64,000 nt of DNA, taken from NCBI RefSeq assembly GCF_030817075.1, contig NZ_JAUSYU010000001.1:3038001-3102000 (forward strand), in the 5' to 3' direction. Source of the DNA: Arthrobacter sp. V1I9. Lineage in GTDB: Bacteria; Actinomycetota; Actinomycetes; Actinomycetales; Micrococcaceae. Below the pieces are notes generated by a model. It was not told the origin of the DNA and made no database searches. It worked only from the letters and a program-made list of their open reading frames with translations. Position 1 is the stretch's first letter, and each line of letters starts with the position of its first letter. Shown in pieces: positions 17,280-20,978 of the stretch. Both the position numbers and the translations under genes were made by a program.

Positions 17280-20200
17280 TCAGCCCGCGGCTGATGGTCC
17301 CGGCTTGAAGTACGCGGCACCGAGCGGCGGCAGCGTAACGCTCAGGGTGGCCGGCTGTCCGTCCTGTCCCTCATCCGTCGCCTTCAGCTCGCCGTTGTTC
17401 AGCACGCCGGAGCCGCCGTAGGTCGTGGCGTCGGTGTTGAGCACTTCCGTCCAGGCACCTGCCTCCGGCACTCCCAGGGTGTAGCCGGCATGCGGCGCCC
17501 CGGAGAAGTTGATGGCGCAGACCAGAGGGTTGCCTTCCTTGTCCCAGCGGATGAACGACAGCACGTTGTTGTCTGCGTCTCCCCCGTTGATCCACTGGAA
17601 GCCGCCGGGCTCGTTATCGCGGGCGTAGAGAGCCGGCGTGGATGCGTAGAGCTCGTTGAGGTCCTTGGTCAGCAACTGCAATCCCTTGTGCGCGGGGATG
17701 TCGGCGAGCCACCAGTCGAGCCCGTGCTGTTCGGACCATTCCGCTTCCTGGCCGAACTCTGTACCCATGAAGATGAGCTGCTTGCCCGGGTGGGCCCACT
17801 GGTAGGCGAAGAACGCACGCAGGTTGGCAAGCTGCTGCCAACGGTCGCCGGGCATCTTCCGGAGCATGGAGCCCTTGCCGTGGACTACCTCGTCATGGCT
17901 GATGGGGAGCAGGAAGTTCTCGGTGAAGGCGTAAACCAGGGAGAACGTCACGGTACCGTGGTGCCACTTGCGGTTGATGGGCTCCTCGGAGGCGTACTTC
18001 AAGGAGTCGTGCATCCAGCCCATGTTCCACTTCAGGCCAAAGCCCAGGCCACCGTGGGCAGTGGGCGCGGTGACGCCGGGGAAGGCGGTTGACTCTTCAG
18101 CGATCATCACAGCACCGGGATGCGTCTTGTACACGGTGGCGTTGACTTCCTGGAGGAAGGAGATTGCTTCCAGGTTTTCCCTGCCGCCGAAGCGGTTGGG
18201 CCGCCACTGTCCCTCTTCGCGGGAGTAGTCCAGATAGAGCATGGAGGCGACGGCATCCACGCGCAGGCCGTCAATGTGGAACTCGTCCAGCCAGTAGAGT
18301 GCGTTGGCCACGAGGAAGTTGCGGACTTCGGTGCGGCCGAAGTCGAAGATCAGCGTGCCCCAGTCAGGGTGCTCACCAAGGGCCGGATCAGCGTGCTCGT
18401 ACAGCGGCTCGCCGTCGAACTGGGCCAGGGCCCAGGCGTCCTTGGGGAAGTGCGCGGGCACCCAGTCCAGCAGGACTCCGATGCCGGCCTGGTGGAGTGC
18501 GTCCACCAGGTACCGGAATTCGTCCGGGTGGCCGAACCGGGAGGTAGGGGCGAAGTACGAGGTGACCTGGTAGCCCCACGATCCGCCGAAGGGGTGTTCC
18601 GCCACCGGCATGAATTCCACGTGGGTGAAGCCAAGCCACTTGACGTAGTCCACCAGTTCCTTGGCGAGTTCCCGGTAGCCGAGCCCTAGCTTCCATGAAC
18701 CGAGGTGGACTTCGTAGACGCTCATGGCCGAGTTGTGCGGATCCCGCTTGGCCCGGGCTTCCATCCATTCGTCGTCCTTGAACGCGTAGGAGGGTTCAAC
18801 GACCCGTGAGGCCGTCAGCGGTGGAACCTCGGTTCCGAAGGCGAGCGGGTCAGCCTTCTCCACCCAGTGGCCGGACTTGGTGCGGATTTCAAATTTGTAG
18901 CATGCCCCTGCTACAACCCCGGGGATGAAAACTTCCCATATGCCGGAGGAGCCGAGGGAGCGGAGCGAGTTTTCGCGCCCGTCCCAGGCGTTGAAGTCAC
19001 CGATGACGCGTACAGCCTGCGCGTTGGGCGCCCAGACGGCAAAGGAGACGCCGTCAACGTCTCCCAGGGACGACTTGTAGTGCTGGACATGGGCGCCCAG
19101 CACTTCCCAGAGTTTTTCGTGCCGGCCTTCACCGATGAGGTGCAGGTCAACTTCGCCGACGGTGGGCAGGTAGCGGTAGGGCTCATCCACGGTGACCGGT
19201 TCAGCATCCGGGTAGGTAACGGCCAGGCGGTAATCCGGGACGTGCCCCTGCTGCAGCGGCTCCAGAACGGCCACCCACACGCCGTGGGCTTCATGTTCCA
19301 TGGGGAATTCGCCGGCCGCGGTGATGACGGTGACGGCTTCGGCCAAATGCTTCACGGTTCGGATGGTGACGTGCCCGTAGTCGTCCAGGTGCGCGCCCAG
19401 GATGGAATGGGGTGCGTGGTGTTCACCGTTCGCGATCTTGCCCAGAGTGCCTGCATCCACGTGCAGGGGCACCCCCGGACGATCCGTTCGTGCTGAGCCT
19501 GTCATTTCATTACCTTCCGATGCTGCCCCGGCTTGGTCGCCGGCGCCGTTACCGCTGAGGAGTCGCCTGGAGGCGTTCACAGGGATCGCCAGCCAGTCCG
19601 GCCTGTTCCGCATTTCATAAACTACTTCGTACAGGGCCTTGTCCAGCCACAATGCCACAAACAGGCGCGATTCCCTGTGGACCGTACCCGGAGTGACCTC
19701 CGCATAACCGGCGAGGAACGCCTCGGCGCAGTCATCAACCCAGGAGGCCGGCACCTGGGCGCCTTCCTGCTCGCGCTGGGCAGCTCCTGCCGCGTAGTCG
19801 AAGGACCGCAGCATGCCCACGACGTCCCGCAGGGGAACATCGGGAACGTTCCGCTCCGCGATGGGGCGCAGCGGTTCGCCTTCAAAGTCGAGGATCGCCC
19901 ACCGCGGCGGGTTTCCTGCCTGTCCGGGGACCTGAAGGATTTGGCCAAGGTGAAGATCGCCGTGGATCCGCTGGAGCGGACCGGTCGGCACGGCGTCGAG
20001 CCCGTTCAGCAGATCGTCCAGCGCTGCGTCATAGGGGCCGACGGCGGAGGCGGCTTCTGCCCAGGCCTGCCGGACGCGCTGGGCTACTGCAGGGGCAATC
20101 GCCTTTCCGGGTTCTGCTTCCGCGGTTTGCCCGAGCGCTTCAGCAAGCCGGCGGTGGACTGTGGCCGTGGCGGCGCCGAGGGCGCGGGCCTCGGTCGTAA

Positions 20201-20978
20201 AGTCCGTTCCGGACCTGGCCGCGTCAACAGCCAGGCGCCAGGCATCCCGGCCGCCGGCCAGGAACTCGTGCGCTACCGCCAGCTCCCCCTGGACGTACCG
20301 CGAGCCGGAGCCCGGGCCGTCGGAGGAGGGCCCGCCCTGCTTCAGCCATTCGCCCCGAACCCAGCCCAGGGTGGCTGGCACTTCGGTGGTTCCCGCTGAG
20401 GTAAGGGCGGCACCTACTTCGACCTCGGGGTTGGTCCCATCCGAGAGGACGCGGAAGAATTTCACAATGGCGGCCGACTCGCCGTCGTCCACAATCACTG
20501 AACTGTTGGACTGCTCACCCGAAAGGACCTTGACCACTCCGCGGGCGGTGGGAAGACGGTGGTTTCCCCGGGTGCGGAACCCGGTGGCGGTGCCGTTGGG
20601 CGCCTTTTCCTCGCCGCGCATCAGGTCGAGCCAGCCGCCAACAAAGTCCGGATCGTGCACGGCGTCGTAGACCCATGGCCTGGAGGGATCCGTGCCCGCG
20701 GCCTCCCCCACCAGCGCGCGTTCCATGCCGGCCGCCGGCGCGGGCCTGAAGCTCAACGGGACCTGGACCACGTCGGTGCGGCGGCCGCCGTCGGGTCCCT
20801 TGGTGGTCACTCTCAGGAGGAACACTGCGAGCCCGGCGTGGCCGGAAGGATCCTCCAGCCCCAGGCTGCCGGCCTGGGACAGCTCAAAAGCGGGCGTCTT
20901 TACGGGAAACCAGCGTTGCTTCGGAAGCCATTCCTGGAGCAGCGCGGTCAGGGCGGGGGTAAGGATGGGCTGGTTCAT
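17280..20978 (-). CDS. glgB: maltokinase-glycogen branching enzyme fusion (Mak-GlgB)
   Basis: 1232-aa bifunctional protein. Residues about 1-470 are the maltokinase (Mak/Pep2) domain, with VVKVLSGEQSNSSVI, the kinase loop IHGDLHLGQI and the metal-binding ILDFEGEP, making maltose 1-phosphate from maltose and ATP. Residues about 492-1232 (741 aa) are a full-length GlgB: GH13 N-terminal module, CBM48 (VSFAVWAPNAQAVRVIGDFN), and a catalytic barrel with LRVDAVASML (nucleophile Asp), VMIAEESTAFP (Glu) and PISHDEVVHGK (Asp). The linker contains an ATG at 19505 preceded by GGAAGG at 19513-19518, a relic or active internal start. The start is ATG at 20978, 1 base after the treS stop; a TTG at 20990 is the alternative. 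Confidence 0.94.
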   Translation of the reverse strand: MNQPILTPALTALLQEWLPKQRWFPVKTPAFELSQAGSLGLEDPSGHAGLAVFLLRVTTKGPDGGRRTDVVQVPLSFRPAPAAGMERALVGEAAGTDPSRPWVYDAVHDPDFVGGWLDLMRGEEKAPNGTATGFRTRGNHRLPTARGVVKVLSGEQSNSSVIVDDGESAAIVKFFRVLSDGTNPEVEVGAALTSAGTTEVPATLGWVRGEWLKQGGPSSDGPGSGSRYVQGELAVAHEFLAGGRDAWRLAVDAARSGTDFTTEARALGAATATVHRRLAEALGQTAEAEPGKAIAPAVAQRVRQAWAEAASAVGPYDAALDDLLNGLDAVPTGPLQRIHGDLHLGQILQVPGQAGNPPRWAILDFEGEPLRPIAERNVPDVPLRDVVGMLRSFDYAAGAAQREQEGAQVPASWVDDCAEAFLAGYAEVTPGTVHRESRLFVALWLDKALYEVVYEMRNRPDWLAIPVNASRRLLSGNGAGDQAGAASEGNEMTGSARTDRPGVPLHVDAGTLGKIANGEHHAPHSILGAHLDDYGHVTIRTVKHLAEAVTVITAAGEFPMEHEAHGVWVAVLEPLQQGHVPDYRLAVTYPDAEPVTVDEPYRYLPTVGEVDLHLIGEGRHEKLWEVLGAHVQHYKSSLGDVDGVSFAVWAPNAQAVRVIGDFNAWDGRENSLRSLGSSGIWEVFIPGVVAGACYKFEIRTKSGHWVEKADPLAFGTEVPPLTASRVVEPSYAFKDDEWMEARAKRDPHNSAMSVYEVHLGSWKLGLGYRELAKELVDYVKWLGFTHVEFMPVAEHPFGGSWGYQVTSYFAPTSRFGHPDEFRYLVDALHQAGIGVLLDWVPAHFPKDAWALAQFDGEPLYEHADPALGEHPDWGTLIFDFGRTEVRNFLVANALYWLDEFHIDGLRVDAVASMLYLDYSREEGQWRPNRFGGRENLEAISFLQEVNATVYKTHPGAVMIAEESTAFPGVTAPTAHGGLGFGLKWNMGWMHDSLKYASEEPINRKWHHGTVTFSLVYAFTENFLLPISHDEVVHGKGSMLRKMPGDRWQQLANLRAFFAYQWAHPGKQLIFMGTEFGQEAEWSEQHGLDWWLADIPAHKGLQLLTKDLNELYASTPALYARDNEPGGFQWINGGDADNNVLSFIRWDKEGNPLVCAINFSGAPHAGYTLGVPEAGAWTEVLNTDATTYGGSGVLNNGELKATDEGQDGQPATLSVTLPPLGAAYFKPGPSAAG
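19503..19518 (-). promoter_or_regulatory. internal ribosome-binding site and ATG at the Mak-GlgB junction
   Basis: On the minus strand GGAAGG, 7 bases, then ATG, in frame with the fusion (codon 492). It begins exactly where a stand-alone GlgB would start (MTGSARTDRPG…). It could allow separate synthesis of GlgB. Confidence 0.55.

Follow-up and report, generated by a model that had tools for sequence, protein, structure and literature searches.

A maltokinase-branching enzyme fusion gene of Arthrobacter carries a conserved internal glgB start and may encode two products

Results

We analysed a stretch of 64,000 nucleotides of the Arthrobacter sp. V1I9 genome (hereafter the window; contig NZ_JAUSYU010000001.1, positions 3,038,001 to 3,102,000), in which a single open reading frame (ORF) of the minus strand, mak-glgB (17280..20978), joins a maltokinase (Mak) to the glycogen branching enzyme GlgB. 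The ORF starts with an ATG at 20978, stops at 17280-17282 and comprises 1232 codons plus the stop, without any internal stop. Translation of mak might begin earlier, from an in-frame TTG at 20990; the ATG at 20978 was taken in the analysis. The translation matches the NCBI family model NF011293 (PRK14705, 1224 positions) end to end, residues 1-1227 aligning with model positions 1-1223 at a score of 2597.4 bits (cut-off 2376).

The maltokinase part, an N-terminal cap followed by the kinase, spans residues 1-475 (19554..20978, minus strand). Its cap domain, Mak_N_cap (PF18085), was found by Pfam at residues 17-109 with 79.4 bits against a cut-off of 22. The part aligns with the solved maltokinases 4u94 (residues 15-475, E 1.4e-53) and 4o7o (residues 15-474), the alignments stopping within 13 and 2 residues, respectively, of the ends of those chains, and it shares with them the segments HGDLHLGQ and DFEGEP. 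The model TIGR02457, named 'putative maltokinase', scores 177.5, under its cut-off of 375. Judging from the cap domain and from the alignment to solved structures, this half is a predicted maltokinase. The GlgB part, residues 492-1232 (17283..19505, minus strand), contains the Pfam domains GlgB_N (residues 511-601), CBM_48 and GH13, and aligns with the branching enzyme chain 3k1d over residues 511-1226. It passes two equivalog models for branching enzymes, NF003811 (993.8 bits, cut-off 741) and TIGR01515 (926.4 bits, cut-off 463.95). The segments GLRVDAV, MIAEES and LPISHDEVV occur in its translation, and we take them to hold the catalytic Asp, Glu and Asp of GlgB.

Between the two enzymes lies a linker of 16 residues (476-491; 19506..19553, minus strand), which extends from the end of the Mak alignment to an in-frame ATG at codon 492 (19503..19505) and holds the Shine-Dalgarno-like motif GGAAGG (19513..19518), 7 bases before this ATG. 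The calculated mass is 133.9 kDa for the whole protein and 81.9 kDa for the 741 residues that follow from codon 492, which would form the second product. A preliminary description of this DNA had proposed the fusion with this domain order, the ATG with its motif at 7-base spacing and the normal length of the remaining GlgB, and the sequence, the Pfam domains and the structure alignments bear it out on all three points.

We then counted synonymous changes by parsimony over 764 codon columns, on a tree of the same gene, in 123 distinct sequences drawn from 154 whole fused ORFs of the genus. This set comes mostly from the best-scoring matches, so that divergent members of the genus are under-represented; it includes L065, while five other loci discussed below (L207, L249, L263, G395 and G030) lie outside it. 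GGAAGG is present in all 123 sequences, and GGAAGGT in 122, the remaining one having GGC instead of GGT at Gly489. Codon 492 is ATG in 122 sequences and GTG in one (L036), a replacement that would retain the start while changing the residue. By the preliminary description's own criterion, an identical fusion lacking the internal site in all relatives would have refuted its reading; in this genus, however, both motif and start codon are always there, and most of the other fused genera, though not all, have such a site.

The conservation of this region exceeds that of the encoded residues. Glu488 is GAA in 123/123 sequences with no synonymous change at all, for a mean of 20.2 in Glu columns, and is the sole zero among 45 of them. 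Gly489 has undergone a single synonymous change, the lowest value among 93 Gly columns (mean 27.9), and its near-fixed GGT accounts for only 14% of Gly codons in the gene set. The base preceding GAA488 is always G, across five different codons. Beyond the start, the early codons of the putative second product are kept on rare letters, ACA, TCA and GCA: ACA493 is found in 107 sequences and GCA496 in 120, at usages of 10% and 15%. Codons 480-496 (19491..19541, minus strand) show the lowest synonymous change in the gene, and its lowest windows of 7, 10 and 15 codons, at 0.11, 0.11 and 0.16 of expectation, all fall inside codons 480-499. The ten-codon minimum was matched in none of 1000 permutations, the lowest permuted value being 0.18. 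As a positive control we used the 3' end of the neighbouring glgE, which contains the Shine-Dalgarno motif of treS; this is the lowest window of glgE, at 0.36 (n=79). The internal junction of mak-glgB thus shows the pattern expected of a nested gene: an in-frame start and a Shine-Dalgarno motif, both preserved as DNA more strictly than the protein would require. These counts argue that the internal motif and start are under selection as DNA and are not a relict.

A second constrained block was observed about 150 nucleotides upstream of the internal start, at codons 440-459 (19602-19661, minus strand). Its codons 440-446 (TTT GTG GCA TTG TGG CTG GAC) and then GAA451 show 3-9 changes in the genus, where about 8-28 are expected; changes in this block were counted for the genus, and the other genera were inspected by eye. 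The block is possibly an internal promoter.

In order to determine how widely the fusion is shared, we examined 159 loci of the genus, made up of three sets (57 + 20 + 80, the 20 chosen mostly from lower-scoring matches) together with G395 and G030; the sets share genomes. Named records among the best 80 of 154 matches in the genus belong to Arthrobacter, to Pseudarthrobacter and, in one case, to a Micrococcaceae bacterium. The reading frame is open from mak through ATG492 in 158/159 loci, a concordance that rules out an assembly error behind the fusion. A search across the bacterial family gave an uninterrupted full-length match in 107 of 108 genus genomes, the exception being G395. Among individual loci, L065 and L207 are fused, L249 is open through ATG492 up to the end of its contig, and G030, which like G395 was matched only in separate pieces, has no stop or frameshift at the junction. 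In L263, from the complete genome of Arthrobacter sp. Hiyo8, the frame is open through ATG492 and the GlgB frame is broken soon after, at about 6426-6560; the frameshift falls between ATG492 and the next conserved GlgB segment and is perhaps a sequencing error. G395 is split: one extra A in the A-run between GGAAGG and the ATG makes the TGA of mak overlap the glgB start as ATGA (G395:C1, about 1954945-1954960; L287, L288), and GGAAGGT and the ATG are both kept. This one-contig genome may represent a split mutant that arose naturally, unless the extra A is a homopolymer sequencing error.

The survey of Micrococcaceae for fused and split versions that the preliminary description had suggested was extended beyond the genus with 64 loci of the family in which both parts are present, chosen by us across genera; 55 are fused and 9 are split. 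Two of the split calls are possibly artefacts, the linker of L106 being interrupted by a run of N and that of L108 being frameshifted within a fused clade; in L118, also scored as split, N occurs in glgB only. Six further loci of the family (L130-L135; groups g41, g23, g35 and g37, where codes such as g28 or f6g6 denote genus groups within the genome set) have glgB and no maltokinase detected in the stretch examined, and were excluded from these counts. Among 30 further loci outside the family but within the order, mostly picked for matches spanning both parts, 18 are fused and 12 split. Across 197 genomes sampled from the whole class, where fusions with long linkers show as two matches and are not resolved, 10 among the matches listed span both parts; the 3 of these that lack a stop all belong to the order. 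The Mak-GlgB fusion is a catalogued family (NF011293/PRK14705); nearly all loci of the genus have it, as do most of those sampled in the family. The preliminary description had presented it as a departure from the usual maltokinase; the fusion itself stands, and its being unusual for this group does not.

We looked for an internal start in the linkers of 93 fused loci outside the genus, including L266-L285, which were picked as already fused and served for start-site counts only. An in-frame ATG or GTG with a four-base Shine-Dalgarno match at 4-11 bases was present in 71/93, where shuffling the codons of these linkers predicts 34.0, and a five-base match in 52/93, where 16.7 are predicted. The four-base site occurs in most loci of 18 of the 27 genera and the five-base site in 14. 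In g28 (10/10 fused loci) and g52 (16/16) the site is kept amid a diverging linker, with the motifs GAGGAG and (A)GGAA and a start alternating between ATG and GTG.

The history of the junction was followed on a tree built from the GlgB of 110 loci, 10 of them rows of the genus, with FastTree and its local support values. The sister of the genus rows is g40 (L092, L095; support 98), which is split: the stop of mak and the start of glgB share an ATGA, and the two genes lie in different frames. G395 repeats this arrangement within the genus, one base off the fused state. Group g45 holds both states, fused in L080 and L081 and split in L099, L110 and L111; all share the motif AGG(G)AAAG and the ATG, the distance from the first base of the motif to the ATG being 18 bases in fused and 16-17 in split loci. 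Other split loci (L137, L138, L140, L141, L157 and L160) have both genes in the same frame and could fuse by stop loss. The tree requires 13 changes between fused and split and cannot tell gain from loss. Well-supported branches make at least 10 of these changes necessary, a number that falls if L106 and L108 prove to be artefacts. The preliminary description had seen in the fusion the loss of a stop between two genes. For this lineage stop loss is unlikely, and a change of frame close to an unmoved glgB start is the more likely account: since g40 and G395 both have glgB out of frame with mak and overlapping it by ATGA, an indel, in either direction, would be a simpler step.

Directly upstream of mak lies treS, encoding trehalose synthase (20980..22776, minus strand; TIGR02456, 908 bits, cut-off 678), whose TGA stop ends 1 base before the mak ATG; since treS is an ORF of its own, the locus does not belong to the bifunctional TreS-Mak type. 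It is preceded by glgE, encoding the maltosyltransferase (22773..24854, minus strand; PF11896 and PF21702), which overlaps treS by 4 bases (GTGA, 22773-22776). The strong Shine-Dalgarno sequence of treS, GTGAGGAG, sits at the end of glgE in the most constrained window of that gene. The mak start had also been considered as a positive control, and was set aside for the glgE/treS overlap because of its weak motif and a mild dip of about 0.68 at the treS 3' end, a value that covers five scored codons among the last seven treS residues (n=77); the lowest treS window, 0.49 (n=77), lies away from this end. The row glgE-treS-mak/glgB looks like a GlgE-pathway operon with mak/glgB as its last gene, and we infer that the three are co-transcribed. 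The genome is a single contig of 4,049,210 bases (4.05 Mb), in which no second full-length GlgB match was found, other matches spanning about 270 query residues at most. A complete ribosomal RNA operon (16S, 23S, 5S; 16801-11312, minus strand) follows, its 16S gene beginning about 480 bases past the glgB stop. This is probably why the draft contigs of many relatives end a few hundred bases past glgB.

Discussion

The analysis shows the ORF, its domains, the gene order and the DNA-level selection on the internal start, and from them we infer the production of two proteins, and the reasons for it, as follows. Most probably this is one ORF with a working internal ribosome-binding site and start for glgB, which would yield both Mak-GlgB and free GlgB. 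Ribosomes starting at mak would make the maltokinase-branching enzyme of 133.9 kDa, while others starting at ATG492 would make a free GlgB of 81.9 kDa, with an N-terminus close to that of the separate GlgB in the split sister genus. Such an arrangement may be advantageous if GlgB is wanted in excess over Mak, or if GlgB is a better enzyme without an N-terminal partner, and the tethered copy could hold the production of maltose-1-phosphate near the growing glucan. A precedent for the second advantage is the chlamydial GlgA-GlgB fusion, whose N-terminal GlgA domain is said, in the available excerpt, to prevent branching activity (PMC7935935). As to tethering, the portion of PMC4306142 at hand proposes that Mak and TreS activities are anchored through the Mak cap domain. 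The preliminary description had raised the idea of two products, and the selection on the internal site lends it support.

Several observations weigh against this explanation. By pairing energy with the 16S tail, ATG492 ranks 15th among the 115 internal in-frame ATGs of 16 ORFs in the window; the motif is thus only moderately strong in one sequence, and Shine-Dalgarno strength in a single sequence was rejected as proof of an internal start. It is conservation across relatives that raises the site above chance. Outside the genus, the fused linkers of g29 (4 loci), g48 (2), g30, f6g6 and f7g70 (1 each) have no four-base site, and in g45, g46, g49 and g51 half or fewer of the loci have one. With the five-base test the fraction in g52 drops to 0.25, and the shuffles behind the expectations of 34.0 and 16.7 ignore the clustering of acidic residues in linkers. 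Free GlgB therefore seems not to be needed by every fused lineage. Conversely, the loss of frame in G395, unless it is a sequencing error, indicates that the fusion may be dispensable in some species.

A different view of the same locus is that the joining of the frames is incidental: a tailed Mak and free GlgB would be the products of use to the cell, and the full-length fusion a tolerated by-product. Linkers of 48 to 534 nucleotides among fused loci, the repeated changes between fused and split on well-supported branches, the coexistence of both states in g45 and the splitting of a genus member by one extra base would all agree with this. However, neutral indels should break the frame in most lineages, and the frame is nevertheless kept through ATG492 in all genus loci except G395, and in 55/64 family loci outside the genus despite very different linker lengths. 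We consider an incidental frame unlikely, the best placed of the alternatives all the same.

The conserved DNA might also serve another purpose, as an internal promoter, as an RNA element or as a Shine-Dalgarno-like pause giving Mak time to fold ahead of GlgB synthesis. Constraint does extend to codons 480 and 483, farther upstream than a ribosome-binding site requires, and the block at codons 440-446 adds a second constrained segment. Yet the start codon itself is conserved, the swap from ATG to GTG included, and this is best accounted for by initiation. No sigma-70-like site was found in 16700-25000, a search that may miss actinobacterial promoters, and RNAalifold, in one run on a gappy alignment, returned for the junction just one two-pair stem (-1.07 kcal/mol). 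Such a role appears improbable, slightly more so than an incidental frame. The preliminary description's title had called the glgB start a relict. Least probable of all is that the site is an unused relict of a separate glgB, with the fusion protein as sole product: the split sister genus with its ATGA overlap near the same place, and the fused genera that lack the site, are compatible with it, but a relict should change at the normal synonymous rate, and this stretch changes about 6-9 times less over the 123 sequences.

If a working internal start is accepted, a broader picture can be proposed, towards which we lean with less assurance than for the locus itself. In Micrococcaceae and several other families of the order, the fusion would carry a second start. 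The ribosome-binding site and start of glgB would stay fixed, and the frame relation of mak and glgB would switch repeatedly by small indels or stops, which inside the genus can be as small as one base; a tethered and a free enzyme would then come from one gene. A gene named as one branching enzyme would encode a maltokinase fusion and a free GlgB, in 107/108 genus genomes and many relatives, and annotation, knock-out design and enzyme assays would have to allow for two products. The overlapping, fused with internal start and fused without it would form a natural series for testing the fusion of operon genes. It would also offer a testbed for the effect on GlgE-pathway flux of tethering maltose-1-phosphate synthesis to glucan branching, and for the harm done to GlgB by an N-terminal partner.

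In the literature covered by our search, which leaves out most subscription journals, no mention of a Mak-GlgB fusion or of an internal glgB start was found in the text available. Taken together, the excerpts of PMC4306142, PMC11046441, PMC6509496, PMC7935935, PMC2885305 and PMC8171050 describe TreS-Mak, GlgA-GlgB and GlgB-MalQ fusions. In Arthrobacter sp. PAMC25564, a 'branching enzyme' of about 3.7 kb at 4148869_4145174 adjoins TreS, according to the accessible part of PMC8171050; its length would fit a Mak-GlgB fusion.

The closest known system is the family NF011293/PRK14705, which is the same fusion, matched over residues 1-1227; its name and description speak of a branching enzyme only, with no word of a maltokinase half or of a second start inside the gene. 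In the TreS-Mak (TreS-Pep2) proteins of Pseudomonas, Estrella and Rubrobacter, Mak is likewise fused to a neighbouring enzyme of the GlgE pathway (PMC4306142, PMC6509496, PMC7935935, PMC2885305, in the parts available). There, however, Mak is C-terminal to TreS, whereas here treS is separate and Mak is N-terminal to GlgB. In the GlgA-GlgB proteins of Waddliaceae and Criblamydiaceae a glycogen enzyme is also fused ahead of GlgB, with a different partner and with no internal start mentioned in the excerpt of PMC7935935. Because that fusion is reported to prevent branching activity, keeping a free GlgB could matter here. As far as the sources at hand describe them, SpaO of Salmonella and HrcQ of Xanthomonas likewise derive a long product and, from an internal start, a short one from one ORF. 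Unlike in SpaO and HrcQ, the short product predicted here would be a complete enzyme, one that relatives encode in a separate gene, and the long product is a gene fusion.

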